Virus record (IMG/VR): IMGVR_UViG_3300020020_000131
Location: 1-29,284 of that record
Length of the DNA stretch: 29,284 nt
Strand: one strand, 5' to 3'
DNA from: a virus
The notes under the pieces are model-generated. The model was not told the DNA's origin. It worked only from the letters and a program-made list of their open reading frames with translations, and searched no databases. Shown here in pieces: positions 3,928-29,122 of the stretch; position 1 is the stretch's first letter, and each line of letters starts with the position of its first letter. The translations under genes were made by a program, and so were the position numbers.

Positions 3928-6405
3928 TCATGAACCTCCTGGTCCCTTGATGATCCTAGACCACGCAGCTTCGGCACGGGCACGCGTCGCCGCCCGACGC
4001 GACGGATGGTCAAGCCCGACACGGCGAGCGATCCCCTCGACCACGTTCGAGAAGTCGACGACGTTGCGAGGCGTCGACGGGGGCGGCACCAGCACGCCCG
4101 CGGCCACGAGCGACGTCTGCTCACCGTCACGGACGTGGGTTTGGGTGCGAGGCACCGGGAACCCGGGCACGTTGACGACCAACGCACCGGCCAGCCGCCA
4201 CCGACCGGTGCGCGTCTTACGCCAGTCCCCTGAGACACCGGAGGCGTTCAGGACACGGAGCTGACGATCGGTTGTGTCGGGACGGAGCGCCCCAGCGAAC
4301 CAGATGCCGTAGTCGTCCTCGCCTACAGCGACATCGGCAACGGCATGACCGGCGTGCTCGTAGTGGTGGACGGCGGGGGCGAACCCGAGCGCAGCCGGCG
4401 CATGCAACGCGCCGAGCGTGATCTGGCCGACAGCAACCTCCTCACCGCCCTTGCAGTGGAGGGTGCCGGTACGGAACCCGGCGTAGTCACCTTGGCGGGG
4501 CGGGGTGACGCAGACCTTCGGCATGAACGACGTGTGGCAGACACCCCAGACGGCGAGGTGGCCCCAGCAACGCCCGTTCGCCTTGTACGTCGGTGGGGTC
4601 GGCCCCTTCAACTGCGGGTTGCGGGTCCACTCCACCGGAGGCTTGACCGGCGGCCCCATTGACGCCGTCAACGACTCACCGCCCCGGAAGCGTTCGCCCG
4701 CGACCCACAACTCGACACCCGACAACGCCACCGACGGCGGCTTGGCTTCCGGCCAGTCGATGCCGTAGCCGAGGGTGACGTGCGGCGTGAAATGCGGATG
4801 GGTTGAGTCGGGTGGAGCGACCGCTTCCAGATCACGGCGAAGGTCGCCCAGTTCGGCCGACTCGATGAGGTAGACGGTCGCAGGAGGCTCGTCATCGCCG
4901 ATCCGGCCCACACCCCCCACCCGAGCGTCAGCGCTCCACTCAGCGCGCTCAGCGGCCCACTCGTGCAACGCCTCGACCGTCTCCGGCGGGGCTTCGTCGG
5001 CCGGCCCGTAGTAGCCGAGCGTGACGTGCAGCTCATCCTCGGGGAGACCACCGTCAACTACGACCACCCCCGGGTCGGCCGGACGCACCACCACCACGAG
5101 CCCCTTGGGCGGCTCGAACGCTTCGGTGACAGCGGCGAACGACTCGGCACCTTCGACCGCCATCAACTCGGGCGGCTCCTGCCCGCCGTCACGCAGATGG
5201 GAAGCGAGGTGACCCCAGACGCCTTCACGCTGATCGGGCGGGATGTCGACACCGCCGTGAGCGCCGTTGAGGCGGGCGATGCCGGCGGCGCACGCCGTCA
5301 GGTTCGCCGCGCCCGGCCGACCAGCCATCGACACGTTGTGGTGCAGGAACTTACAGGCGGACCGATCCACCACCCCGTCGTCGATGGCGCCACCGTCGAT
5401 CCAGGCGTAGGCGGCACGAGCGACATCGGCATCGAGCTTCTCCGGCAGCCGGCCAGCATGACCGGACGCGTTCCACGTCCCGGCCACCGTGCGAGCCTCG
5501 TGCGGCGCGACAACACTGAACGACGACAACATGCCCACCACTTCGACGTCAGGCTCACCACCGACATCGACAGGCTCGACGGTCTGGTACTCGTCGTCGG
5601 GGACGAGCTCGACCTCGGCTTCGGGCAGCGCCGGTTGACCGGTGAGGCAGCCGTCCATGACGCGACCCTTGCGGATGAGCATCTTCTCCGGTTCGACGAG
5701 CAGATCGATGAGCATGTCGCCTTCCTCGCCGTGTTCGGCTTCGCCGGAACCCTCGGGGAAGATCAGATCGACGTCGGCGTCTTGCGTTTCGTCGATGGTG
5801 ACGGAGATGCCCCGGAGGTAGCGCTGGCCGATCATGCGGTGCACCCGGCGGCCCTCTTCGGACTCCATGTCGAACTGGCCGCGACCGAGAATCGCCGGCA
5901 CCCGACGACCGTCGGCGAGGGCCAATTCGGAGCGGACCACCTCATCAGCCCGAGCAACGATCAGCGCGTCATCATGCCCAGGCGCGGTGCGGTCCTGCCA
6001 GTAGATCGACAACGGAGGCTCACGCCACGTCAACGCACCTTCGGCGAACTCACGACGAACAGAGTCCCCCGTCTCCACCGTTTCGACAGCGAGCACGCCA
6101 CGCCAGTAACCCTTGGAGTAGCGGGACCCGTCCCATTCGGCAGCATCGAACGACTCACCCTCCCCACCGGGAGCACCTTCGGCCGTCGGGTTGGCCTCGG
6201 CGCTCTGCCACGCCTCGTACACGGCGGTGAGCACCGGATCAGCCGCGGCTTCATCCTCGTCGTTGGCGTAGAGCGCGGCGACTTGATCGTTGGCGTCATC
6301 CTCGTTGGCGTGGCATCCCTCGACTTCGCCGTCGTCGTCCTTTACGACCGCCCAGGGGCGATCAGGGGGACAGTCGGGGTGGTTGGCTTGGGTGTGCCAC
6401 GGCAT
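3928..6405 (-). CDS. Capsid maturation protein with embedded 2H phosphoesterase domain
   Basis: 825 residues, multidomain. Residues 1-50 carry a short 'WAVVKDDDGEVEGCH...QVAALYAN' unit seen at the start of phage head-maturation proteins. Residues 90-300 resemble the prohead-protease region of such proteins. Residues 340-410 hold a helical 'HHNVSMAG...ACAAGIARLNGA' unit. Residues 435-570 contain two HxT motifs (H460-V-T and H542-V-T) about 82 residues apart, each in an 'HVTLGY' context, the signature of the 2H phosphoesterase (2'-5' RNA ligase-like) fold. Residues 610-770 ('GHLAVWGVCHTSF', 'SGDWR', 'VNVPGFPV') match the C-terminal part of actinophage capsid-maturation proteins. Role: probable processing of the capsid scaffold. 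The added 2H domain would act on a 2',3'-cyclic or 2'-5'-linked nucleotide substrate. No clear ribosome-binding site precedes the ATG at 6405. Confidence 0.75.
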   Translation of the reverse strand: MPWHTQANHPDCPPDRPWAVVKDDDGEVEGCHANEDDANDQVAALYANDEDEAAADPVLTAVYEAWQSAEANPTAEGAPGGEGESFDAAEWDGSRYSKGYWRGVLAVETVETGDSVRREFAEGALTWREPPLSIYWQDRTAPGHDDALIVARADEVVRSELALADGRRVPAILGRGQFDMESEEGRRVHRMIGQRYLRGISVTIDETQDADVDLIFPEGSGEAEHGEEGDMLIDLLVEPEKMLIRKGRVMDGCLTGQPALPEAEVELVPDDEYQTVEPVDVGGEPDVEVVGMLSSFSVVAPHEARTVAGTWNASGHAGRLPEKLDADVARAAYAWIDGGAIDDGVVDRSACKFLHHNVSMAGRPGAANLTACAAGIARLNGAHGGVDIPPDQREGVWGHLASHLRDGGQEPPELMAVEGAESFAAVTEAFEPPKGLVVVVRPADPGVVVVDGGLPEDELHVTLGYYGPADEAPPETVEALHEWAAERAEWSADARVGGVGRIGDDEPPATVYLIESAELGDLRRDLEAVAPPDSTHPHFTPHVTLGYGIDWPEAKPPSVALSGVELWVAGERFRGGESLTASMGPPVKPPVEWTRNPQLKGPTPPTYKANGRCWGHLAVWGVCHTSFMPKVCVTPPRQGDYAGFRTGTLHCKGGEEVAVGQITLGALHAPAALGFAPAVHHYEHAGHAVADVAVGEDDYGIWFAGALRPDTTDRQLRVLNASGVSGDWRKTRTGRWRLAGALVVNVPGFPVPRTQTHVRDGEQTSLVAAGVLVPPPSTPRNVVDFSNVVEGIARRVGLDHPSRRAATRARAEAAWSRIIKGPGGS

Positions 6406-7264: not shown

Positions 7265-7989
7265 CGGGTCTGCCAGGCGAGCTGACGGGCGAGCGCATGC
7301 GCACCAGAATTCGTCGTGTCAGCCGGACGCACCGACGGATGCAACCCATCGGCCGCCAGCAACGCCGGATTGCCGGTCGTCATCGCAAACCAGTCGATGT
7401 ACCGGACCGGTTGAGCCGGGTTGGCAGCGAACACGCCCCGAGCCGCCGACCCGCGGTCCGCCATGATCTGACGGGCCGTCGAGCCCGGCGCGTGGCCTGA
7501 GACAGTGAACGTCCCGGCCTGAGACGACGCCGGCAACACGAACACGATGGTGCGGTCGTTGGGGACGACGTTGATGACGGCCTGCACGAACTGGCGCCAC
7601 TTGTCGAGGGTGGTGGCAAGCCCGTTCTTGTCGCCGATGCCGCCGTCTTGAACGACGACGAACCCACCGGGCGACACGGAGCCCATGAGCCAGGTGACTT
7701 CGGTGACGGTGGACGCACGGTTGTCGCAGCCGGACAACCACGGCGCACGACACGGCTCAGAGATGATCCAACGGTCAGCGAGCGTCGGCCACGGATCGAG
7801 CAGATCGTTGCGGAGGACCAGTTCGAGGATAGAGTCGCCGGAACCGACGACACGGTACGGGGTGGCGCCGGCCTTGTCGGACAGGACGGTGGTGCGGTCG
7901 GGAGCGGGGTCGATGGCGGGCACTGCTTGAACAGTACCGGCAGTGGCGAACGTGGCGCCGGCCACGAGGGCGAGCAGGAAGCGTTTCAT
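7261..7989 (-). CDS. Secreted SGNH/GDSL-family esterase
   Basis: 242 residues from the ATG at 7989, which overlaps the upstream stop (ATGA). Residues 1-22 are a signal peptide (basic start, 'LLALVAGATFATAGTVQA'). Block I of the SGNH hydrolase fold is 'VVGSGDS' with the nucleophile Ser53, and the block V Asp/His pair is in 'DGLHPS' (about D214 and H217). The centre contains 'DGGIGDKNG'. SGNH enzymes remove acyl groups from sugars or lipids. A phage copy with a signal peptide most likely acts on the host envelope, for example on acylated cell-wall polymers. It follows a two-helix membrane protein, so the pair could be a lysis unit. The substrate cannot be read from the sequence. Confidence 0.8.
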   Translation of the reverse strand: MKRFLLALVAGATFATAGTVQAVPAIDPAPDRTTVLSDKAGATPYRVVGSGDSILELVLRNDLLDPWPTLADRWIISEPCRAPWLSGCDNRASTVTEVTWLMGSVSPGGFVVVQDGGIGDKNGLATTLDKWRQFVQAVINVVPNDRTIVFVLPASSQAGTFTVSGHAPGSTARQIMADRGSAARGVFAANPAQPVRYIDWFAMTTGNPALLAADGLHPSVRPADTTNSGAHALARQLAWQTR

Positions 7990-8231
7990 AGCGGCCTCTG
8001 GGGAGTGTCGTGAGGATCGGGGTAGGACTCTTCGGCGTCGGTGAGTGAGTCGGCCCATTCGCCGCGGTGCCGCCAGATCCAGATGACGGCGTCGATGATG
8101 GAGACGGTGACGAACGCTGCGGCGGTCATGCCGACTGCGTACCAGAGGCCGAGCCCGACACCTTCGTAGTGTTGGAGGACAGCGAATGCACCGAACGCGA
8201 ACGTCACGGCGAACCGGGCACGGACGTTCAT
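7986..8231 (-). CDS. Small two-helix membrane protein, possible holin
   Basis: 81 residues. Residues 5-28 and 32-52 are hydrophobic and form two predicted membrane helices; the C-terminal 25 residues are charged and polar ('RHRGEWADSLTDAEESYPD'). The ATG at 8231 overlaps the previous stop, and the stop overlaps the start of the secreted esterase. Size, topology and partner fit a class II-type holin, but many small phage membrane proteins look the same, so this is inference. Confidence 0.65.
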   Translation of the reverse strand: MNVRARFAVTFAFGAFAVLQHYEGVGLGLWYAVGMTAAAFVTVSIIDAVIWIWRHRGEWADSLTDAEESYPDPHDTPQRPL

Positions 8232-8482
8232 CGGGCACCGCCGTAGCGGGAGCCGTCGGCGAAGGTGACGAGACCCTCAACCGGGGTGGGCGTGTCGACG
8301 CCGTTGGGACCGTAGAACGGAACCCAGTAGCACGCAGCGCCACCGAGCAGGGCGTCGGACAGGTCCACTGCGCCGGGACGGACTTGGTACGCAGTGAGGG
8401 AGATGGCGACTACGACGCCGTGGCCGGGGATGGTGTCGCCGACTTCGCAGCGGCGGGCGGACGGGACCGGGGTGGTGGTCAT
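8228..8482 (-). CDS. Hypothetical protein behind promoter copy 3, leaderless
   Basis: 84 residues, starting MTTTPVP at an ATG 7 nt behind a TATAAC box. A longer frame exists upstream, but the promoter position makes the 8482 start the only sensible one. The protein has a beta-rich middle ('GHGVVVAISLTAYQV') and a Cys in 'GGAACYWVPFYGP'; no family is recognised. It heads a four-gene transcript with the holin-like protein, the SGNH esterase and a short basic protein. Confidence 0.7.
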   Translation of the reverse strand: MTTTPVPSARRCEVGDTIPGHGVVVAISLTAYQVRPGAVDLSDALLGGAACYWVPFYGPNGVDTPTPVEGLVTFADGSRYGGAR

Positions 8483-8526
8483 AACCCCAGTTATACACCC
8501 GGGGACCACGGAAGTAAACCCCTATT
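8483..8526 (-). promoter_or_regulatory. Dispersed promoter, copy 3, leaderless for 8482 gene
   Basis: TTTACT (8513-8518), 17-bp spacer, TATAAC (8490-8495), TGGGGTT and ATG at 8482. The TAG stop of the upstream gene (8522-8524) is part of the AATAGGGG sequence, so the element itself supplies that stop codon. Confidence 0.82.
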
Positions 8527-8689
8527 TCAAACTGCGGAGCAAACGTGCCGTCTCGCTGGGGTTCGCTGGCGCATCGGGAGGGATGACTTCGGCGGGATGT
8601 GGGGTGGCCGGCAGCAACGGCTCCCAACCCAACATGCGGCGCACCTCGGCGATCACCACGTCAGGTTGCGCCGGCCCGTTGCCCCTCAT
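8522..8689 (-). CDS. Small protein at end of MuF transcript, unknown
   Basis: 55 residues. The ATG at 8689 overlaps the upstream stop in an ATGA junction. The sequence has a short helix ('PDVVIAEVRRMLGWEPL') followed by a Pro/Ala-rich stretch and a basic helix ('SETARLLRSLK'). Its stop codon lies within promoter copy 3. No family is recognised; the tight coupling to its neighbour is the main support. Confidence 0.6.
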   Translation of the reverse strand: MRGNGPAQPDVVIAEVRRMLGWEPLLPATPHPAEVIPPDAPANPSETARLLRSLK

Positions 8690-8865
8690 CGTCCACCCCA
8701 AGGAACGCCATCACGGACGAGGTTCGTCCTGGTGAGATGAACGTGGGCGTCGTGATAGACGCCATCCTCGATGCAGCGTGCCCCGACCGCGGCGAGGCAT
8801 GTGGGGCAGAACCCGACCGCGGCGACCGAACCATCGTCGGGCACAAGCCGGCCGATCGGGATCAC
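8686..8865 (-). CDS. Small Cys/His protein, probable Zn-binding
   Basis: 59 residues from a GTG at 8865 that overlaps the MuF stop (GTGA). Cys20 and Cys23 ('FCPTC'), Cys31 and His38/His41 ('GARCIEDGVYHDAHVH') form a plausible Zn site of the kind common in small actinophage proteins of unknown function. The GTGA junction decides the start; a longer frame runs into the MuF coding region. Confidence 0.68.
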   Translation of the reverse strand: MIPIGRLVPDDGSVAAVGFCPTCLAAVGARCIEDGVYHDAHVHLTRTNLVRDGVPWGGR

Positions 8866-11480
8866 GCGGCCCACGGGATCACCGCCCAATCAGCGACGTC
8901 CATGCCAGCAACCCGAGCCACTTCCACGACTTCAGCATACAACACCTCGAAATCCTGGCCGCGATCAATGGCCTCAGGGACCAGTTCGCTGTAGCGGACA
9001 GCAGCCGCGCTGGTTCCTTGCCCACCGACCGACCCCTCGGCGATCACCTCTTCCAGTTCCCGCACCTCACGTTCCCATGCCTGGAACGACATCCGCCACG
9101 GAGGATCATCCGCTTCGGTCGCTCCACGCAGCAGCGAGTACGCCCGATCCGCGTGCTGCTCGGATTGATGTGCGGCGAGGTAGCCGGCGGCGTCCTCGGC
9201 GTCGACACCGACAATCCGAAGCAAGTCATACCCGTCCTGCTCCAACACGGACGAGACATCGGAGGCGGTCATCCCGCCGAATCGGTTGGGATTGGGGATG
9301 CGACCGGAACGGATCGAGCCGGCGATATCGGCGCGGCGAGTGTGGTAGAGCCACTCGTCCATGAACTCGTCGACAGTGGTGCCGTTGAACACGCCGGCCG
9401 CTTGGGCGCGTTGCATGACGACGTCGGGGGCGTCGGTGGCACGATCGGAGAACCAGCGGGACGCCAACCGGTTTCGTTCCCAACCGGAAACCTTCGCCTT
9501 GTACCAGTCGTATTCGCCGCCCGAGCCAGTGGCCAGGCGGGGACGGCGGATGTGGAAGGCGTCGGCTTGATTGAGCCAGCCAAGTGAGTCAGCTTGGATG
9601 GAAGCGGCTTCGGCACGGACCCGAGCCCGGAGAACGTTGACGTCGGGCAGAGACGCAGAGAGTTGTTCGGGGGAGACGCCGTGGGCGGCGGCGAACCGGG
9701 TTCGACGTTCAGCGGTGGCGCTGGATCGAGTGGCACGGGCCGGCCGGGTCACCTCGGGGGCAGGGTCGGAGAAGATGACGGTGCAGTTCCGAACTATAAT
9801 TCCGTTTGCGATGAACCATCCCGTTCGGGCAGAAAGGTCGTAGACGTGGCCGCTCCAGTCGTTGATGAAGCTCACCTGATCCAGATGTACCGGGATGGAG
9901 CCAGCCTCGAAGACGTGATTCGGGCCGACGGACTCTCTATGAACCGCGTGTACGGGATCATGTGCCGAGCCGGAGTCGTGCGCAGCCACAGCGATGGACT
10001 GCGCATGGCGCGTCGTAACCGGCGAGCCAGCATCGCCAGCGAAGTCCTCCGCCGCTACGAGACCGGAGAGAGCGAGAATGCCCTCGCCGCGGCGTTCGGC
10101 CATTCGCGACAGGTGATCCGGGCCATCCTGCTCGACGCCGGAATCGAGCCCCGCGGCAGATCGGCAGCGAATGTGTTGCGGATGAGAGATGACGAGTTGG
10201 CGGGACGAGTCACCCGGAACGCTCACCTGTCGATGGGCGCTGGCGAAGCCGTGGTCGCCTATCTGCTCGGCGATTGGCTTGGGTACGACGTGGAGAGGCA
10301 AGTCCAGGTTGGTCGCCGCAACATCGACATCGCCGTCGGGAATGTGGCCGTAGAAATCCACCTCCGCCCGGCCCATCCGTTGAGCGACCGCTTGGAGATT
10401 CAACGTCTCCCAAACCTGTTCGATGCTGGATATCACGTCGTCTACCTGTGGCACCGCAAGCGTTTGGTGATCGGAGCGAAACACGCCGAGGACATAGCCG
10501 CCTTCATTGAGCGCGTCGGCCTGGCACCAGCCGACCGGCGTTGCCACGGGGTGGTTGGGCGTGACCACCAGTTCGCCGAGTGGAGTCGTGAGTCGGACCA
10601 TTGGACCCGCATACCAGCGACGCAGAATTGCTGACACCCCTTCCGCCTCCACGACAGTAACCCCGCTTACGCAACGGCAATTTATCACTTCGGCCGCCGG
10701 GCCGGGGCCGCCCGGGTACTCCATCATTGCGCCGCCGACGTTGAACATGTCGTCGATGGGGACGGTCTGCCCATCAGCCTCGATGTGGGTTGGGCGGGTG
10801 CGGGCGTCGGTGGTGGCGAGCCACGTCTTGGTTTCCGGAGCCAACTCGGGAATGGCACGGGCGCCGGCCATCGCCCCCGCATTCGACGCCGACACAACTT
10901 CGGTGCGGGCGATCGTCCTTGCGCGCCGCTGGTTGATTTGTGACTGACCGAGGAGTCGTTGCTTGATGTCCTCGATCCCCTCGCCAGCGGTGAACCCCTT
11001 GACCAGTTCGGAGCGGACATCCATCCACATGCCGTCGCCGACGTTGACGAGACGATTCGTGGCGGCGGCGAGATGATCCCGGGCACGAACATCGAGAGCG
11101 AGCCGGGCGTTGAGCGGGAGCGACGTGCGGGGGACAAGCGCGCCCGGGGCGACAGCCAGATTGGCGCCGGCCGGGACCGACTGGGATGGAAGGTTGATGC
11201 CGGCGTCTTCGTAGAGGGCGACAGCGACTCCGGTGGCGGAACGACCGTAGGCGGCACCAATGTGCGTGGACAGCTCAGGAATCTCCTGAGACCACACTCG
11301 ACGGGCCTCCAGTACGTCGTCGAGGTCCATGCCTCCCACGGGGTCCATTGCGGCGGTGACGGGGTTAGACGCCAACTGGCGGGCCGCAGCGAAGAACGCT
11401 TTGCGGACGGCCCGAGCGAACACCTCCTCAGCCTTCAAGATGAGGGCGTCAAGCTCGGCGTCGGACAGACCGGCGATCAC
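8862..11480 (-). CDS. MuF-type head morphogenesis protein interrupted by an intein
   Basis: 872-residue precursor from a GTG at 11480 overlapping the stop of the Zn-ribbon gene. Residues 1-269 contain the MuF (SPP1 gp7-like) core: 'RTIARTEVVSASNAGAM' is the helix before the conserved tail, and 'DARTRPTHIEADGQTV' and 'INCRC' its Asp/Thr/His and Cys motifs. An intein (residues 270-565) interrupts the motif immediately after 'INCR'; the C-extein resumes with 'CTVIF'. The spliced product would be 269 + 307 = 576 residues. Residues 566-872 form a helical C-terminal extension of unknown role. MuF proteins sit at the portal inside the head and help assembly; some carry effector domains in the C-terminal part. 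The gene follows the portal, as expected. Confidence 0.85.
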   Translation of the reverse strand: MIAGLSDAELDALILKAEEVFARAVRKAFFAAARQLASNPVTAAMDPVGGMDLDDVLEARRVWSQEIPELSTHIGAAYGRSATGVAVALYEDAGINLPSQSVPAGANLAVAPGALVPRTSLPLNARLALDVRARDHLAAATNRLVNVGDGMWMDVRSELVKGFTAGEGIEDIKQRLLGQSQINQRRARTIARTEVVSASNAGAMAGARAIPELAPETKTWLATTDARTRPTHIEADGQTVPIDDMFNVGGAMMEYPGGPGPAAEVINCRCVSGVTVVEAEGVSAILRRWYAGPMVRLTTPLGELVVTPNHPVATPVGWCQADALNEGGYVLGVFRSDHQTLAVPQVDDVISSIEQVWETLNLQAVAQRMGRAEVDFYGHIPDGDVDVAATNLDLPLHVVPKPIAEQIGDHGFASAHRQVSVPGDSSRQLVISHPQHIRCRSAAGLDSGVEQDGPDHLSRMAERRGEGILALSGLVAAEDFAGDAGSPVTTRHAQSIAVAAHDSGSAHDPVHAVHRESVGPNHVFEAGSIPVHLDQVSFINDWSGHVYDLSARTGWFIANGIIVRNCTVIFSDPAPEVTRPARATRSSATAERRTRFAAAHGVSPEQLSASLPDVNVLRARVRAEAASIQADSLGWLNQADAFHIRRPRLATGSGGEYDWYKAKVSGWERNRLASRWFSDRATDAPDVVMQRAQAAGVFNGTTVDEFMDEWLYHTRRADIAGSIRSGRIPNPNRFGGMTASDVSSVLEQDGYDLLRIVGVDAEDAAGYLAAHQSEQHADRAYSLLRGATEADDPPWRMSFQAWEREVRELEEVIAEGSVGGQGTSAAAVRYSELVPEAIDRGQDFEVLYAEVVEVARVAGMDVADWAVIPWAA
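9772..9845 (+). promoter_or_regulatory. Promoter and ribosome-binding site for the antisense nuclease
   Basis: TATAAT at 9795-9800 is a perfect -10 box in an otherwise GC-rich coding region; on the other strand these bases encode the conserved 'GIIV' of intein block G. No good -35 hexamer is visible 17 bp upstream. AGAAAGG at 9831-9837 gives an 8-nt spacing to the GTG. A start site near 9807 would leave a leader of about 40 nt. Confidence 0.65.
9786..10673 (-). mobile_element. Intein in MuF protein (296 residues)
   Basis: Cys270 of the precursor (codon 10671-10673) opens block A ('CVSGVTVVEAEG'). Block B is 'GELVVTPNHPVATP' with Thr307 and His310 of the TxxH motif. Block F is residues 545-560, starting HVYDL. 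Block G ends 'GIIVRN' at Asn565 (9786-9788), followed by Cys566 as the +1 nucleophile. The usual penultimate His is replaced by Arg564, a known natural variation. The insertion lies in the most conserved MuF motif, typical of homing sites. No in-frame LAGLIDADG or HNH domain is visible on the minus strand. Residues 319-544 are Ala/Gly/Asp/His-rich with little obvious core, and they are opposite the nuclease gene on the other strand. Confidence 0.9.
9846..10634 (+). CDS. EDxHD/Vsr-like homing endonuclease, antisense inside the intein
   Basis: 262 residues, the only plus-strand gene. The GTG at 9846 follows AGAAAGG (9831-9837, 8-nt spacer) and a perfect TATAAT at 9795-9800. Residues 8-45 and 62-102 are two helix-turn-helix units ('MYRDGASLEDVIRADGLS...', 'RRYETGESENALAAAFGHS...'), as in DNA-binding parts of homing nucleases. 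Residues 125-225 match the Vsr-like fold: Glu134 in 'GAGEAVVAYLL', then 'GYDVERQVQVGRRNIDIAV' (Asp161), 'NVAVEIH' (Glu170, His172), 'DAGYHVVYLWHRK' and 'AEDIAAFIE'. These are the EDxHD catalytic pattern. The gene lies wholly within the intein, leaving 60 bp and 39 bp single-coding at the two ends. Its codons are exactly reverse-complementary in register to those of the intein. It probably cuts intein-less muF genes to spread the intein. Confidence 0.85.
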   Translation: MAAPVVDEAHLIQMYRDGASLEDVIRADGLSMNRVYGIMCRAGVVRSHSDGLRMARRNRRASIASEVLRRYETGESENALAAAFGHSRQVIRAILLDAGIEPRGRSAANVLRMRDDELAGRVTRNAHLSMGAGEAVVAYLLGDWLGYDVERQVQVGRRNIDIAVGNVAVEIHLRPAHPLSDRLEIQRLPNLFDAGYHVVYLWHRKRLVIGAKHAEDIAAFIERVGLAPADRRCHGVVGRDHQFAEWSRESDHWTRIPATQNC

Positions 11481-19287: not shown

Positions 19288-20736
19288 TCAGAGTTGTTCG
19301 GTGGCGTACTTGGTTTGATCCGGGAGCGACGCCGAACCGATCCGGGTCGGAGGCATCAACTGCGTCACGACATGCACCAGAGCGTCGATGCGGTCCGGGG
19401 ACTTTCCCTCGGCCGGAACCCACGTGCTCATCTGATCCTCCAGCTTCGGGAGATGACCGAAGTGATGCACGGCACCTTTGACATACAGCACGGAGACAGG
19501 CTCGGCGCGGTCAGCCTTGCTGAGTTTGGCGCGCACCTTCTGCACGTTCACTGTTGGGTCGACGTTGTGGATGACGGCACGGTAAGCGTCTCCCTGGTTG
19601 ATCTCGACCCACGCCACCTCGCAATTGAAGTCCCGGTACGCCTTGACCACTTCCGCCGCCCACACTTCGGGTGGGCCGGTCAACGACCGATCGTCGAGCA
19701 CGACAACATGGTCACGGGTCGCCCGGGCGTTGACTGGGGCGGTGGCGACGACGATGCCGCATTCGGCGGTCTCGCCGGGAGGGTCGACACCGATGGCACG
19801 AACCCAGCGGCGCCGTTCCTTCGTGAATGTTTCAGCGGCACGACCGAACTGTTCGGCGATCTTTCCCCAGGCGACGGCCAGTGACCGCCATGGCCGTTCG
19901 ATGTCGAACTGGAGGAACCGTCCACGCTCGATTTGAGCGAGCGTCCACAGCGCCCCCTCGACGTCTTCCAGGAATCGGGCGTGGATCTCCTGGGCGCCGA
20001 GACGGGTGTTCTCGTAGCGTTCGAGGATCAGCTCGACGAACGCCGGAGCCAAGTTCAGGAAGTTGTCGTAGGTGGAGCCGGTGGTGACGACGGTGCGGGG
20101 ACGTTCCTCCAGAGCCCGGAGCCACGGCAGAGGACGGGGGGTGCCGGTGATGATGGAGTGGGGTTCGCCGACACGGTTGCCGAACATGGCGTTGTCCCAG
20201 GCGTCGGCACCGAACTTCATGGAGGCCGGCTCGTCGAACCAGACGAGGTCGGAGTTGAGGCCACGGATCGAGTCGGGGTCGGCGGCGGAACGGACGTGGC
20301 CGACGGCGCCGTTGGGCCAGGAGACGAGACGCTTGGAGGCTTCGTAGGTGGGGCGGACCGCGGGCGGATGGATGGCGAGGAGACCGGACGGGCCGTCGAC
20401 CATGACGTCGCGGGCTTCGGCGGGGGTCTTGCCGACGATGGTGATGAACCCGGCGAGGCCCTTGTTGACGAGGGAGCGGACACCTTCGGCGCCGGCACGG
20501 GTCTTGCCGAACCCGCGGCCGGCACGGATGATCCAGGTGTCCCAGACACCTTCGGGGAGACGTTGGGCGGGGCGGGACAGCCATTCGTTCCAGGCGTACT
20601 GGGCGGAGCGGGACATCTCGGCGGGGAGTACCTCGCGGAGGTTCGCTACGGCTTGCTCACGGTCCTCAGGGGCGAAGCGGAGGAGTGCCCGCTCCAGCGG
20701 GGACAGAGTGGCGGGATCACGCTCCAGAACGGACAT
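19288..20736 (-). CDS. terL: Terminase large subunit
   Basis: 482 residues. The motor domain has Walker A 'RAGRGFGKTR' (residues 71-80) and Walker B 'LVWFDE' (164-169), with a coupling-type 'ITGTPRP' at 196-202. The nuclease domain has Asp318 in 'AIGVDPPG', Glu378 in 'AWVEIN' and Asp451 in 'DRIDALVH', the RNase H-like metal site. Length and motif order are typical of a complete TerL. It packages DNA through the portal using ATP and cuts the concatemer. The ATG at 20736 forms a TGATG junction with the DpdA-like gene upstream. The putative small terminase is 4.3 kb upstream, separated by modification genes. Confidence 0.93.
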   Translation of the reverse strand: MSVLERDPATLSPLERALLRFAPEDREQAVANLREVLPAEMSRSAQYAWNEWLSRPAQRLPEGVWDTWIIRAGRGFGKTRAGAEGVRSLVNKGLAGFITIVGKTPAEARDVMVDGPSGLLAIHPPAVRPTYEASKRLVSWPNGAVGHVRSAADPDSIRGLNSDLVWFDEPASMKFGADAWDNAMFGNRVGEPHSIITGTPRPLPWLRALEERPRTVVTTGSTYDNFLNLAPAFVELILERYENTRLGAQEIHARFLEDVEGALWTLAQIERGRFLQFDIERPWRSLAVAWGKIAEQFGRAAETFTKERRRWVRAIGVDPPGETAECGIVVATAPVNARATRDHVVVLDDRSLTGPPEVWAAEVVKAYRDFNCEVAWVEINQGDAYRAVIHNVDPTVNVQKVRAKLSKADRAEPVSVLYVKGAVHHFGHLPKLEDQMSTWVPAEGKSPDRIDALVHVVTQLMPPTRIGSASLPDQTKYATEQL

Positions 20737-21338
20737 CAGGCTCCAGCCTGGATGAGCGTCGGCTGTTGATTGGTCGCCCGCATGAACCGCAGCAGTTTGG
20801 GCAGGTTGACGTCAGGGCCGAACGCGACGAACGTGCCATCGACCGAGTCGTAGTCGTGGGCGGCGGCGAATCGGAGACGGCGCAGCGAATTGACCCGACC
20901 CATGTGAGTCCAACCGTCGGACCCGGCAGCGAGAGCCTGCGCCTCGACGCTCAGTTTCCAGGCGTCGTCACCGCCGGTGAACAAGACGTCGGCATCATCA
21001 GGGATAGCAGTGCACCCGTTCTGTGTGACGTAGGCGGCCCGATAACCGAACCCCTTGACCACGGCGGCGTAGCGCATCCAGCGCTCGTTCGTCGCTGCGG
21101 CGTCGCATACGACATCGGGGACGACGGCGAACAGACAGTCGGGTTCGTTGGCGTACCGTTCAAGCGTGTCGATCCACTTCGACTCGCGCCACTGGTCACC
21201 GTAGCAGCCGTTGTCGAGCGCCCAGCAGACGTTGGGGAGGAGTCGGTTACCGCTGTTCGGGGTGACCAACTGCCCGAGAAGTCCGGCAGTCATGGCGTCA
21301 CGAACCGGCGGTGTTGAGGGCGTTCCGAGATACAACAC
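20736..21338 (-). CDS. Queuine transglycosylase-like protein (DpdA-like)
   Basis: 200 residues from a GTG at 21338 that overlaps the transporter gene by 41 bp. 'CWALDNGCYGD' near residue 40, 'CLFAVVPDVVCDA' at about 70-82, 'ADVLFTGGDDAWK' at about 120 and 'HMGRVNSLRRLRFAAAHDYDSVDGT' at about 145-170 are the pattern I know from phage queuine tRNA-ribosyltransferase-like proteins (DUF7221 type). The asparagine/arginine segment and the 'DSxDGT' barrel strand fit the TGT superfamily. In phages such proteins (DpdA group) exchange guanine in DNA for a 7-deazaguanine base. The adjacent transporter supports this reading. Product and substrate base cannot be read from sequence. Confidence 0.7.
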   Translation of the reverse strand: MLYLGTPSTPPVRDAMTAGLLGQLVTPNSGNRLLPNVCWALDNGCYGDQWRESKWIDTLERYANEPDCLFAVVPDVVCDAAATNERWMRYAAVVKGFGYRAAYVTQNGCTAIPDDADVLFTGGDDAWKLSVEAQALAAGSDGWTHMGRVNSLRRLRFAAAHDYDSVDGTFVAFGPDVNLPKLLRFMRATNQQPTLIQAGA

Positions 21339-21849
21339 GACGACGACGAGTTAACCAGACGACAGGCAAGGCGATGGCGACCATGTAGAACTTGCCGACG
21401 GTGTTGCCGAACCAGTGGGCGGTCGACCCGAACGCCAACGTCAGGAACAGCAACGAGTCGACGACTGCTCCGACGACGTTGGAGGCGATGACGGCCACTG
21501 ACCATTGGCGGCGACGCAGCGGGTCGTACACGGCGAAATCGGCAAGCTCCGACACGGCGAACGCTAAGCCGGATGCAGCGGCGATCGGCAGATAACCGCC
21601 GGGGATTGTGGCGGCGTCCTCGATCAGGTACGACACCCCGGCACCGAGGGCGATGGCAGCGAGCACCCAGCGTCGCCCGCCCAACTCATGGAGGGCATCG
21701 CGCAGTCCGAAGGCGAGCCCGGCGAAGTAGACGCCGGCTGGCGCTGCTAGACCGAATCCGATCGGGACGATCCCATATCGGCCGAGCGCCCAGTTCGCGG
21801 CGACGACGGTGCCGACGAACGCGGCGAACACCGCACATTTCACGGTCAT
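21298..21849 (-). CDS. VUT/YhhQ-like queuosine-precursor transporter
   Basis: 183 residues with about five or six membrane helices. 'GLRDALHELGGRR' at about residues 48-60 and 'GAGVSYLIEDAATI' are characteristic of the VUT (YhhQ, DUF165) family, which imports preQ0 or preQ1. 'GLAFAVSELADFAVYDPLRRR' at about 95-115 is the second family motif. The ATG at 21849 overlaps the upstream stop (ATGA); the reading frame runs 41 bp into the transglycosylase-like gene. Together they suggest that the phage salvages a deazaguanine precursor from the medium and inserts it into its DNA. Confidence 0.8.
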   Translation of the reverse strand: MTVKCAVFAAFVGTVVAANWALGRYGIVPIGFGLAAPAGVYFAGLAFGLRDALHELGGRRWVLAAIALGAGVSYLIEDAATIPGGYLPIAAASGLAFAVSELADFAVYDPLRRRQWSVAVIASNVVGAVVDSLLFLTLAFGSTAHWFGNTVGKFYMVAIALPVVWLTRRRRVVSRNALNTAGS

Positions 21850-22565
21850 GGCCCCTCGTTAAGAGCCAACTCACACAGCAGCGAGCATTCGAACGATGGT
21901 TCGTCGGCGTGGTTCCCTCGGTCGGGGTCTAATTCATCGAGGAACACGTCTTTGAGGCAGGAGTGCCCGATGTCCCGTTCTAGCTTCGCCATGCGGGCGA
22001 ACACGTCGGGGAAGTCGCGGCGGATCTTGTTCCAGTAGCCCATGCCACCCTTGACGCAGCCCACACAGTTGTTGTTGCGGTAGCCGAGCAGATACATGGT
22101 GGGCAGGGTGATCCCGGCCCGGTCGATGACGGCGAGACAGTCCGATTTGGTGAGCCCGGCGTCGATCAGCGGCGTGGAGAGGTTTACGTCGGGGTTGTTG
22201 TCGCGGAAACGCTGCGCACGTCCTCGTTCTTCGACGGTGTATCCGAACACTTGGATGTCGTTGGGCTCCTGGAAGGCGAAGCGGACTTTGCGTTTCAACT
22301 CTGCGGTGCAGAGGGCACCGGCGGGCGAGTTGAGGAACCGGCGCTCCTCCCACACCTGCCACGTGTCGATGTAGCGATCGGAGCGGAGGCGGACGACGTC
22401 GACGTTGAGCCACTTCTCGACGTCACAGATAAACCGTTCGTTGTCGGGGTGTTCACTGCCGGGGTTGGTGTAGGCGAGAACAACGTCGTCATGGTCGCGG
22501 AGAGTGAGGCGTGCGGCGACGGCGGAGGCTGCGCCTGCGGAGAACCAAACGAGGTGACGGGTCAT
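21846..22565 (-). CDS. PP-loop ATPase of the PAPS-reductase family
   Basis: 239 residues; ATGA junctions at both ends. 'HLVWFSAGAASAVAARL' (residues 4-20) is a PP-loop, the pyrophosphate-binding motif of N-type ATP pyrophosphatases, with the usual SGGxDS changed to SAGAAS. 'VLAYTNPGSEHPDNERF' follows as in PAPS reductase-like proteins. Cys86 in 'AGALCTAELKR' and the 'NNNCVGCVKGG' pair (C167, C170) could hold an iron-sulfur cluster or Zn. Relatives adenylate a substrate and transfer sulfur or nitrogen. Beside the deazaguanine genes, a base-modifying step is plausible; phosphorothioation alone would need Dnd partners, none of which is visible. Confidence 0.78.
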   Translation of the reverse strand: MTRHLVWFSAGAASAVAARLTLRDHDDVVLAYTNPGSEHPDNERFICDVEKWLNVDVVRLRSDRYIDTWQVWEERRFLNSPAGALCTAELKRKVRFAFQEPNDIQVFGYTVEERGRAQRFRDNNPDVNLSTPLIDAGLTKSDCLAVIDRAGITLPTMYLLGYRNNNCVGCVKGGMGYWNKIRRDFPDVFARMAKLERDIGHSCLKDVFLDELDPDRGNHADEPSFECSLLCELALNEGP

Positions 22566-23179
22566 CGGCGGAGGCGACGGTAGCCGGGGCGGTCAGGGTT
22601 GCCGAGGTGGGCGGCCGGACGCCCGGCCGGTTTCGCCTCGGCACGGGCGGCCATACGATCGATTTGGCGGGTGAGGTAGGTGCCGACAGACTCGCCGTGA
22701 ACTTCGGCACGAGCGGAGACGATCTGCCAGGTGGCCTCGGAGAGTTGCAAGGCGACGATGCGGCCGGCGACCTTGCCCTCGGCGGCGTCGATGGCCTTGA
22801 TGACCTTGCGGCGGGTGGGCGGAGAGGCATCTGAGGAGGCGGCGATGACCTGCTCGACGATTGGCTTGTTGACGGCCATTCGGCGGGAGTCTGATTCCAG
22901 TTTCGCGGGGACACCGCGACCCCGGGCGCGGCCCCTTCCTACCAGGCGCGATAGCTCACCTAATTTCGTCTCAGCGCGCCGCTTCTCAGCCTCGATCGCG
23001 GCGAGCCCGACAGCCTCCGGGGAGGCTCGGAACATGCCGGCGATCACATCTAGTTCGGCGATGAGTTGAGCCAGCTCGGTGGGATCGCTGGCGGCCTGAC
23101 GAATCTCGGTTGAACGAGCCACGAGCCCGTCGATGGTGGCGACATCGACGGATCCTTTGACGGCGGGGAGCAGGTTCAC
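22562..23179 (-). CDS. Hypothetical helical DNA-binding-like protein
   Basis: 205 residues from a GTG at 23179, overlapping the RHH gene stop (GTGA). Mostly helical. Residues 1-70 include 'VATIDGLVARSTEIRQAA' and a heptad-like segment; 71-100 are very basic ('EAEKRRAETKLGELSRLVGRGRARGRG'), followed by helices up to 'VGTYLTRQIDRMAARAEAK'. The charge pattern resembles ParB-like or adaptor proteins in phages, but no definite motif is visible. Coupling to the RHH gene suggests a joint function in regulation or partition. Confidence 0.62.
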   Translation of the reverse strand: MNLLPAVKGSVDVATIDGLVARSTEIRQAASDPTELAQLIAELDVIAGMFRASPEAVGLAAIEAEKRRAETKLGELSRLVGRGRARGRGVPAKLESDSRRMAVNKPIVEQVIAASSDASPPTRRKVIKAIDAAEGKVAGRIVALQLSEATWQIVSARAEVHGESVGTYLTRQIDRMAARAEAKPAGRPAAHLGNPDRPGYRRLRR

Positions 23180-24069: not shown

Positions 24070-24134
24070 GGCCCCTCGTTTCGGATGGTGGCGGAGGATT
24101 CGTAGACGACGAGGACATCACGCAGATAGGTCAT
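24066..24134 (-). CDS. 22-residue micro-protein
   Basis: MTYLRDVLVVYE...NEGP. ATGA overlaps at both ends (with the methyltransferase stop and the 24069 gene start) argue that it is translated, at least as a coupling leader. The coding sequence contains AACGAGGGGCC, the ribosome-binding site of the next gene. A leader-peptide role is as likely as a functional product. Confidence 0.4.
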   Translation of the reverse strand: MTYLRDVLVVYESSATIRNEGP

Positions 24135-24823
24135 CGGGTGAACACGATCAGGTAGGAGTGATGGCGGCGTGCCCGGATCGGCTCGAAGATGTTGTGCCCG
24201 CCCGGCCCGGGGCCGGTGTGGTGGACGATCTGATCGTGCTTCACCCAACCGCGTTGCAACGCCAGCATTGTGACTTCGTGCGGGATGTCATGGAACGTCG
24301 ATATGCGCTCGCCGTCGTGCGACGGCGAAACGACAGATCCCTGAGCGAACTCCATGCACTTGACGAGCACGAACCGATCAGCGACGCGCAGAACCTCATG
24401 CAGCCCATCGAGGATGAGCGGCAACGGCCCGGCCGAGCCGTGAAACGGTGCGAGCCCGAACCGGCGCCGGAAATCGGCTACGCCCGCTGTGGTTGCTTCG
24501 GTGCCACTGTGCACGTACGGCGGGTCATAGGTCACACTGGCGAACGATCGATCCGGGTGAGGAAGGCAACGGAAATCGACGCCGTCGAGATCGAGATCGT
24601 GGAACGTGAACGGATTCGGTGTGAACCGCCGCCACCATCCGCCAGCGGTGTCGCCATTGCCGTAGGTGACATCGAGCACCGAGCCGGTGAGGTACATCGG
24701 GGCGACAGCGGCGATCAGCTCTGCGTTGGTGCCGGTGAACACCGACGGCATGATCCAGCCCTGCGGGCGTGCCGGAACGAGGTCGGGGAACATCGACTCC
24801 TGGACGTCGCGGGGCTTACCCAT
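24131..24823 (-). CDS. DNA methyltransferase with DPPY motif
   Basis: 230 residues. Motif I is 'VLDVTYGNGDT' (residues 49-59), the SAM-binding loop; motif IV is 'SVTYDPPYVHSG' (about 96-107), the catalytic DPPY loop of N6-adenine or N4-cytosine methyltransferases. 'RFVLVKCMEF' forms a later strand. The order I then IV and the small size fit a phage orphan methyltransferase without its own restriction enzyme. It modifies phage DNA, probably to resist host restriction. The next gene follows directly, and the small terminase is two genes upstream. Confidence 0.83.
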   Translation of the reverse strand: MGKPRDVQESMFPDLVPARPQGWIMPSVFTGTNAELIAAVAPMYLTGSVLDVTYGNGDTAGGWWRRFTPNPFTFHDLDLDGVDFRCLPHPDRSFASVTYDPPYVHSGTEATTAGVADFRRRFGLAPFHGSAGPLPLILDGLHEVLRVADRFVLVKCMEFAQGSVVSPSHDGERISTFHDIPHEVTMLALQRGWVKHDQIVHHTGPGPGGHNIFEPIRARRHHSYLIVFTR

Positions 24824-28244: not shown

Positions 28245-28838
28245 TTAGGGGGCGAGGAGAACGGCGAGATCGGCGGCGGACTCGACGAGGGGACGGGTGC
28301 CGTCGAGGCGGACGGTGGGGCGGGAGTTGATGAGGTTGTTGACTTTGGTGACGCGACCTTTCCACCACGAGTGGTTCTGTTCGGGTTGGCCGTGGGCGGC
28401 GGCGCGGGCGGCGGCTTGTTGGCGGGCTTGGGGGATGGGGGTGTCGAGCCAGACGAGGGTGAGGTTGGGGCAGGCGGCGAGGAACTTGTTGTTGGCGAGC
28501 CGGTCACCTTCGCCGAGGAGCACCGCGGGAATCTGTTTGTCGTCGGGAAGGGTGCTGGCGAACACGTCGGGGTTAATTTCGAGCCCGGCCAAGATGCGGT
28601 CGATGCAGGCGAGGACAGTGACCCAGTCGATCGCCTTCGGGTTGATGTTCATGGCGAGCGTGTCGGTCCCGCCGAACGGGTCACGATGCCGGCCAAGATG
28701 CCAAAGGGTGCCGTGGCGGACGTGCGGGATCGGGGTGAGATGCTCGACGACCGGTTGAAGGTCGAGAAGTTGCAAGGCGAGGTTGACGACGGTCGTCTTG
28801 CCGGAGCCCGAGAGCCCGACGAGGTAAACGGTCCTCAT
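28245..28838 (-). CDS. P-loop nucleoside kinase-like protein
   Basis: 197 residues from the ATG at 28838 (ATGA with the upstream gene). Walker A is 'VYLVGLSGSGKTT' (K14, T15). 'NNKFLAACPNLTLVWLDTP' gives the second strand, and 'RQQAAARAAAHGQPEQNHSWWKGR' looks like a lid segment with Arg residues. The order fits a small kinase of the adenylylsulfate/nucleoside-kinase type that phosphorylates a nucleotide or another small metabolite. The start was chosen at 28838 because the P-loop begins directly after it. Confidence 0.75.
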   Translation of the reverse strand: MRTVYLVGLSGSGKTTVVNLALQLLDLQPVVEHLTPIPHVRHGTLWHLGRHRDPFGGTDTLAMNINPKAIDWVTVLACIDRILAGLEINPDVFASTLPDDKQIPAVLLGEGDRLANNKFLAACPNLTLVWLDTPIPQARQQAAARAAAHGQPEQNHSWWKGRVTKVNNLINSRPTVRLDGTRPLVESAADLAVLLAP

Positions 28839-29122
28839 GGCAGACCCCCGGCGTAGACATGCCAGCAGAACGGGCCGATGACACACGAACCGACGTGTTG
28901 CGGAGCGTCGTCGGGAATCGGGTGACCGGTGCCGATGAACGTCAACAAGACTTTGCGGTGTAGATCACCAGGCAACGGATCGATGGTGTGCTCGATCCAC
29001 ACGGTCGGCGTGTAGTCGCCTTCGGGGAGGTCGGGTGCGGCGCCGACGTGGACGACTTTCGGGTCCACTAGATTCACGCCGCGCCCGCCATGCTGTAGGT
29101 CATACCTGTAGACGGTCCTCAT
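28835..29122 (-). CDS. DUF7352-like small protein
   Basis: 95 residues from the ATG at 29122 behind AAGGAAACGAGG. 'MRTVYRYDL' start, 'KVVHVGAAPD' and 'VLLTFIGTGHPIPDDAPQHVGSCVIGPFCWHVYAGG' at the end match a common small actinophage family (strand-rich with GTGHPIP and WHVY motifs), which I recall as DUF7352. Function unknown. Start shifted 16 codons in from the first ATG to give the strong ribosome-binding site. Confidence 0.75.
   Translation of the reverse strand: MRTVYRYDLQHGGRGVNLVDPKVVHVGAAPDLPEGDYTPTVWIEHTIDPLPGDLHRKVLLTFIGTGHPIPDDAPQHVGSCVIGPFCWHVYAGGLP

Follow-up and report, generated by a model that had tools for sequence, protein, structure and literature searches.

Can a phage place a 7-deazaguanine in its DNA with an importer and a transglycosylase, and with no genes for making the base? 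This question is raised by a short gene run beside the large terminase gene of an IMG/VR virus record (IMGVR_UViG_3300020020_000131, 29,284 bp; this whole stretch is called the window below). 7-Deazaguanines are established protectors of phage DNA, and no group of 7-deazaguanine phages is larger or less well understood than those with the transglycosylase DpdA but no biosynthesis genes (PMC6884629). DpdA-only phages and scattered homologues of the transporter YhhQ have been described, YhhQ being uncorrelated with any phage group (PMC6884629). A salvage-type 7-deazaguanine modification cassette of a phage is the best explanation of the run in the window and, in our judgement, a likely one, with preQ0 as the presumed substrate and DNA as the presumed target. 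The open reading frames (ORFs) and proteins concerned are these.

19288-20736, minus strand: terminase large subunit (TerL), coupled downstream (Terminase_6N E 1e-20; TGATG overlap)
20736-21338, minus strand: short transglycosylase resembling DpdA and tRNA-guanine transglycosylase (TGT), 200 amino acids, GTG start (phrog_15826 E 5e-47; AlphaFold model; motifs)
21298-21849, minus strand: YhhQ/COG1738-type (VUT) putative queuosine-precursor transporter, 183 amino acids, ATG start (phrog_4899 E 5e-37; Vut_1 E 2e-12)
21846-22565, minus strand: SspD/'PptA'-like PP-loop ATP pyrophosphatase with a PAPS-reductase fold, 239 amino acids, ATG start (phrog_424 E 1.5e-51)
22562-23179, minus strand: 205-amino-acid ORF coupled upstream of the PP-loop gene (sub-threshold RHH_7 match only, E 0.09)
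28245-28886: terminase small subunit (phrog_800 E 4e-17)

The three cassette ORFs were confirmed at these coordinates, and transcription runs from the 205-amino-acid ORF (23179-22562) through the PP-loop gene (22565-21846), the YhhQ gene (21849-21298) and the 200-amino-acid gene (21338-20736) into TerL (20736-19288). As read from the sequence, the first two junctions overlap by 4 nucleotides each (ATGA), the transporter and transglycosylase genes by 41 nucleotides, and the transglycosylase and TerL genes by 1 nucleotide (TGATG). The three genes are translationally coupled to one another, as an original prediction made from the letters of the window had proposed, and also to the large terminase gene. 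That prediction had placed the cassette between terminase genes; TerL and the small subunit do flank it, but only TerL adjoins it, the small-subunit match lying about 5.7 kb upstream.

Is the 200-amino-acid protein a transglycosylase, as was proposed when it was called queuine-transglycosylase-like? Its fold and ordered motifs bear this out. An AlphaFold model made with 68 homologues (pLDDT, the predicted local distance difference test score, 94.3) is a bare eight-stranded barrel of the (beta/alpha)8 type found in TGT. In a structural second look it matched TGT 4gi4 with Z 14.6 over 193 of 200 residues (root-mean-square deviation 3.2), and TGTs occupied most of the top 50 structural matches. 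Since this barrel fold is common, it would not settle TGT identity alone; motifs and gene neighbourhood are what discriminate. D42, D75, Q106, G122-G123 and D167 are invariant among 75 sequences of the short family and sit at the ends of strands 3, 4, 5, 6 and 8 in the model. Their contexts (LDNG, VPDV, VTQNG, FTGG, SVDG) follow the order of those in Escherichia coli TGT (LTDSG, FDEC, IIQG, AVGG, MFDC, with D89, D143, Q187, G213-G214 and D264), matched by motif and without atom-level superposition. These are candidate base-recognition and nucleophile residues. A loose hhalign alignment, itself not significant, places D42 and D167 opposite their aspartate counterparts in TGT.

A tblastn search of phage records found relatives in Arthrobacter and Mycobacterium phages that are labelled 'DpdA-like tRNA-guanine transglycosylase'. 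An iterated profile seeded from the long DpdA-like protein of Sonali recovers the short family, and hhalign aligns the short family with that protein (probability 37%, E 3.5e-4, over 62 columns). The TGT and DpdA profiles of Pfam, PADLOC and NCBIfam gave no match to the 200-amino-acid protein, and most hhalign comparisons with individual TGT or DpdA sequences fell short of significance. It is structure, motifs and gene neighbourhood that carry the TGT assignment, rather than any sequence-profile match.

The 183-amino-acid protein is a YhhQ/COG1738-type transporter by sequence, with preQ0 as its putative substrate. Its Vut_1 match passes the cut-off of that model, and the conserved COG1738 residues are present, N19, R50, D51, S93, E101, D104 and D131 being conserved across 74 cassette copies. 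E. coli YhhQ, which transports preQ0 (PMC5372724), was matched by BLASTP with E 1e-8 (37% over 65 amino acids). The 7-cyano-7-deazaguanine transporter model NF008406 also matches at E 1e-8, under its curated cut-off; as the NCBIfam equivalog models remain below their own cut-offs, the substrate is not settled by sequence.

If the cassette lives on an imported base, what accompanies the transglycosylase gene elsewhere? Although a scan of viral contigs with the single 200-amino-acid sequence gave no confirmed relatives, one with an alignment query gave 578 among the first 600 stretches. We compared 120 loci, taken from viral contigs (80 loci), bacterial genomes (32 loci, mostly actinobacteria) and annotated phages. 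YhhQ was found within 2 kb of the short transglycosylase in 73 of them, nearly always directly upstream and overlapping. Among the 88 loci with 8-kb flanks, 60 had YhhQ only, 13 had QueC, QueD or QueE only and none had both (Fisher p 3e-8, loci treated as independent). When the 120 loci were clustered at 70% identity, YhhQ was present in 50 of the 83 clusters, Que genes in 8 and both in 1 (p 0.006). This pattern of transporter or biosynthesis genes speaks for 7-deazaguanine modification of the salvage type, with phage DNA as the probable target. The window itself gave no match to QueC, QueD or TGT profiles, and the earlier suggestion that the phage would salvage a precursor through the transporter, without biosynthesis genes, is supported by that and by the YhhQ linkage. 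Of the bacterial genomes with a YhhQ-linked copy, 13 in all, seven gave no full-length match to QueC; gene content thus suggests that several of them would depend on an external source of precursor.

Variants of this arrangement were also observed. In Arthrobacter phage Aoka a QueF-like ORF (PF14489 E 9e-7; TIGR03139 E 6e-9) lies between YhhQ and the transglycosylase, with QueF-like ORFs at similar positions in four further loci (L021, L022, L048, L181). In the locus of the closest relative (L011) the large terminase is split into an ATPase part (7309-7980) and a nuclease part (9157-9648), and the short DpdA and YhhQ genes sit between the two pieces (7309-9648). A ParB-like ORF, which recalls DpdB, the DndB/ParB-like protein of bacterial dpd islands, starts about 4 nucleotides past the short transglycosylase ORF in L060-L063. 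Short DpdA copies with no adjacent YhhQ occur in Nocardia and other actinobacteria (L183-L186, L188, L192, L200).

Several results weigh against this assignment and against salvage. A search of PDB profiles with the short family brought up no TGT and no relative. By hhalign the family scored a probability of 0.3% against a nine-sequence TGT alignment, which is not significant. Pyruvate kinase ties TGT at Z 14.6 in the structural second look, and Foldseek alone ranked thiazole synthase (ThiG) first and TGT fourth. Beyond its eighth strand the protein has just one helix before it ends, and it lacks the zinc site and C-terminal region of TGT. Neither YhhQ nor Que genes were within reach in 15 of the 88 loci, and Sonali and Vibrio phage R29Z, which have QueC and QueD in the same genome as the short transglycosylase, encode an additional, longer DpdA-like protein; there the short one may serve another role. 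The structural ties and the lack of a significant sequence link to TGT would suit some other barrel enzyme, such as a hydrolase or lyase acting on nucleosides or bases, that stands beside a VUT transporter by chance. We think this very improbable, because the five TGT catalytic and recognition motifs occur in order at the strand ends, TGTs dominate the structural matches, and the gene pairs with preQ0 transport or preQ0 synthesis genes in a mutually exclusive manner. A match to another barrel family had been named in advance as grounds for giving up the assignment; the structural match is to TGT, pyruvate kinase ties with it, and motifs and neighbourhood separate the two.

A barrel enzyme of this kind could also put the salvaged base into tRNA of the host or phage, as the founding TGT members of the fold family act on tRNA, and the 200-residue model shows no DNA-binding domain. 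A zinc site is a defining feature of tRNA-acting TGT. Its absence speaks against the TGT label for the 200-amino-acid protein, but not against a DpdA-like function. In addition, 11 of the 13 bacterial genomes with YhhQ-linked copies have no strong TGT match, which, as a matter of gene content, makes service to host queuosine-tRNA unlikely; host TGT was found in 2 of 13 genomes with linked and 6 of 12 with unlinked copies, raw counts that are confounded by taxonomy (Nocardia). DNA modification by the phage DpdA relatives is established (PMC6884629), and the gene, besides its coupling to the terminase, frequently has ParB-like or DNA-modification genes close by. Modification of tRNA is therefore unlikely.

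What, then, does the PP-loop enzyme do? It is a probable sulphur-inserting enzyme of the SspD/'PptA' kind, judging by profile and fold comparisons. The PADLOC SspD profile matches it at E 3.7e-15 over 202 of 277 profile positions, and a profile of its family matches PDB 21fy ('PptA') at E 1e-100; the latter is identical over 250 amino acids to a protein of Vibrio phage VH-5. A literature search found no account of 'PptA', including the meaning of the name. C86, C167, C170, C227 and C231 are invariant in 51 relatives, so that conserved cysteines go together with the profile match. The model (pLDDT 89.7) has a fold of the PAPS/APS-reductase type (Z 13.5), and Fe-S sulphur-transfer enzymes also match it. 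QueC was considered as an identity and rejected, since SspD is its sequence match and PAPS/APS reductases are its top fold matches. No SspA, SspB or SspC was recognised by Pfam- and PHROG-type scans of the ten proteins around the cassette; host IscS could stand in for SspA.

It had been suggested that the PP-loop enzyme further alters the base. In such a single pathway the imported deazaguanine would be thiolated (nitrile to thioamide) or amidated before or after insertion, a part that QueF-like or amidotransferase genes play in other phages. Several observations fit: the PP-loop slot is near the position of the QueF-like ORFs in Aoka-type cassettes; and YcfA, a guanine-thiolating PP-loop enzyme that makes 6-thioguanine, shares the fold (Z 9.6). 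At distances up to 1.5 kb from the short transglycosylase, PP-loop genes also reach 7.6 times the density seen at 1.5-8 kb (12 versus 5, binomial p 6e-5). These counts exclude matches seeded by the L190 ORF, which are shadow ORFs of the transglycosylase; in L190 a PP-loop ORF of another subfamily (SSGGKDS) at 8507-9631 overlaps the end of the short DpdA gene. However, the near genes (12 of 120 loci, 10 clusters) fall in several different subfamilies, and the sequence matches SspD, not QueC. Only 3 of 80 loci of the closest PP-loop relatives have YhhQ or short DpdA nearby, whereas 27 of 80 have cytosine-methyltransferase-like neighbours. Action on the base is not supported by these loci, and the single pathway has a poor chance of being right; the thiolation guess fits PP-loop chemistry, but the substrate was probably wrong. 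A separate sulphur-inserting DNA modifier, perhaps for phosphorothioation, is more likely than a deazaguanine step, because most members of the SspD/'PptA'-like family occur in phages that have neither DpdA nor YhhQ in the vicinity. On the simplest view, sulphur-based modification of DNA is a distinct function whose genes tend to occur alongside those for base modification.

How would the salvage cassette work? The YhhQ-like protein would import a 7-deazaguanine base, most likely preQ0, into the infected cell, and the short TGT-fold enzyme would swap it for guanine in DNA, with D167 as the putative aspartate nucleophile and D42, D75, Q106 and G122-G123 as putative base-recognition residues. 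DNA so modified might withstand host restriction on packaging or injection. The co-transcribed, chemically separate PP-loop enzyme of the SspD/'PptA' kind would insert sulphur, probably into the DNA backbone. A more tentative idea, which we hold to be possible yet doubtful, is that one operon guards one and the same virion DNA in two orthogonal ways, by a 7-deazaguanine that is salvaged and written by a minimal 200-amino-acid transglycosylase and by a backbone phosphorothioate made by the PptA/SspD-like enzyme.

Phage DpdA systems are already known. Those of 9g, CAjan and Rosebush, and DpdA2 of Vibrio phage nt-1 (PMC6884629), likewise combine a TGT-fold transglycosylase with preQ0 supply genes, and restriction protection is predicted for them and the cassette in common. 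They differ in supply, which is by synthesis there and by the transporter here, and in size, the cassette barrel having 200 amino acids against 464 for nt-1 DpdA2 and 296 for the long DpdA-like protein of Sonali; tblastn with the 200-amino-acid protein found no match in the 9g, CAjan, Rosebush and nt-1 records. Enterobacter phage EC151 and Seuratvirus phages share DpdA and a preQ0 transporter with the cassette but, unlike it, carry the full FolE/QueD/QueE/QueC pathway, to which the EC151 transporter is coupled (PMC8310023).

A comparable TerL-adjacent cassette is already present in Rhodococcus phage ReqiPine5, where gp01-gp04 (TerL, PAPS reductase, DpdA-like, YhhQ-like) are the same kinds of gene, annotated merely as conserved proteins and PAPS reductase. 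Like the window, the ReqiPine5 genome gave no QueC or QueD match; its PP-loop gene is of another subfamily (FSGGNDS) and occupies the opposite flank of the transglycosylase gene. Arthrobacter phage Aoka (gp38-gp40) and Mycobacterium phages StevieRay and Majeke (gp53-54) have the pair of YhhQ-like and short DpdA-like genes, 38-44% identical; Aoka differs in the QueF-like ORF inside the pair, and in StevieRay the stretch searched contains no PP-loop gene. The PP-loop enzyme is what the cassette shares with SspD of SspABCD and with phage 'PptA', the difference from SspABCD being that SspA, SspB and SspC were not recognised around it.

Elsewhere in the window, a DNA-methyltransferase-like ORF (24131-24823, phrog_24333 E 8e-9) lies upstream in the same gene run, and an 825-amino-acid ORF (3928-6405) matches portal/head-maturation families, its middle stretch matching RNA-ligase families.

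The original prediction was to be given up if guanine in virion DNA proved unmodified. Orion grown in Mycobacterium smegmatis had no modified base, neither phage nor host making preQ0 (PMC6884629); unmodified virion guanine is thus uninformative about salvage unless preQ0 is supplied. The importer-or-biosynthesis pattern of the short family and the SspD/PptA link were not found described in the literature searched, later DpdA-subfamily papers lying outside it. The short DpdA proteins form a distinct family with a strong pattern, importer or biosynthesis genes rather than both. This pattern makes reliance on an environmental precursor directly testable in M. smegmatis, which has no queuosine genes. 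A transglycosylase of 200 amino acids would also offer a minimal means of writing deazaguanine into DNA.

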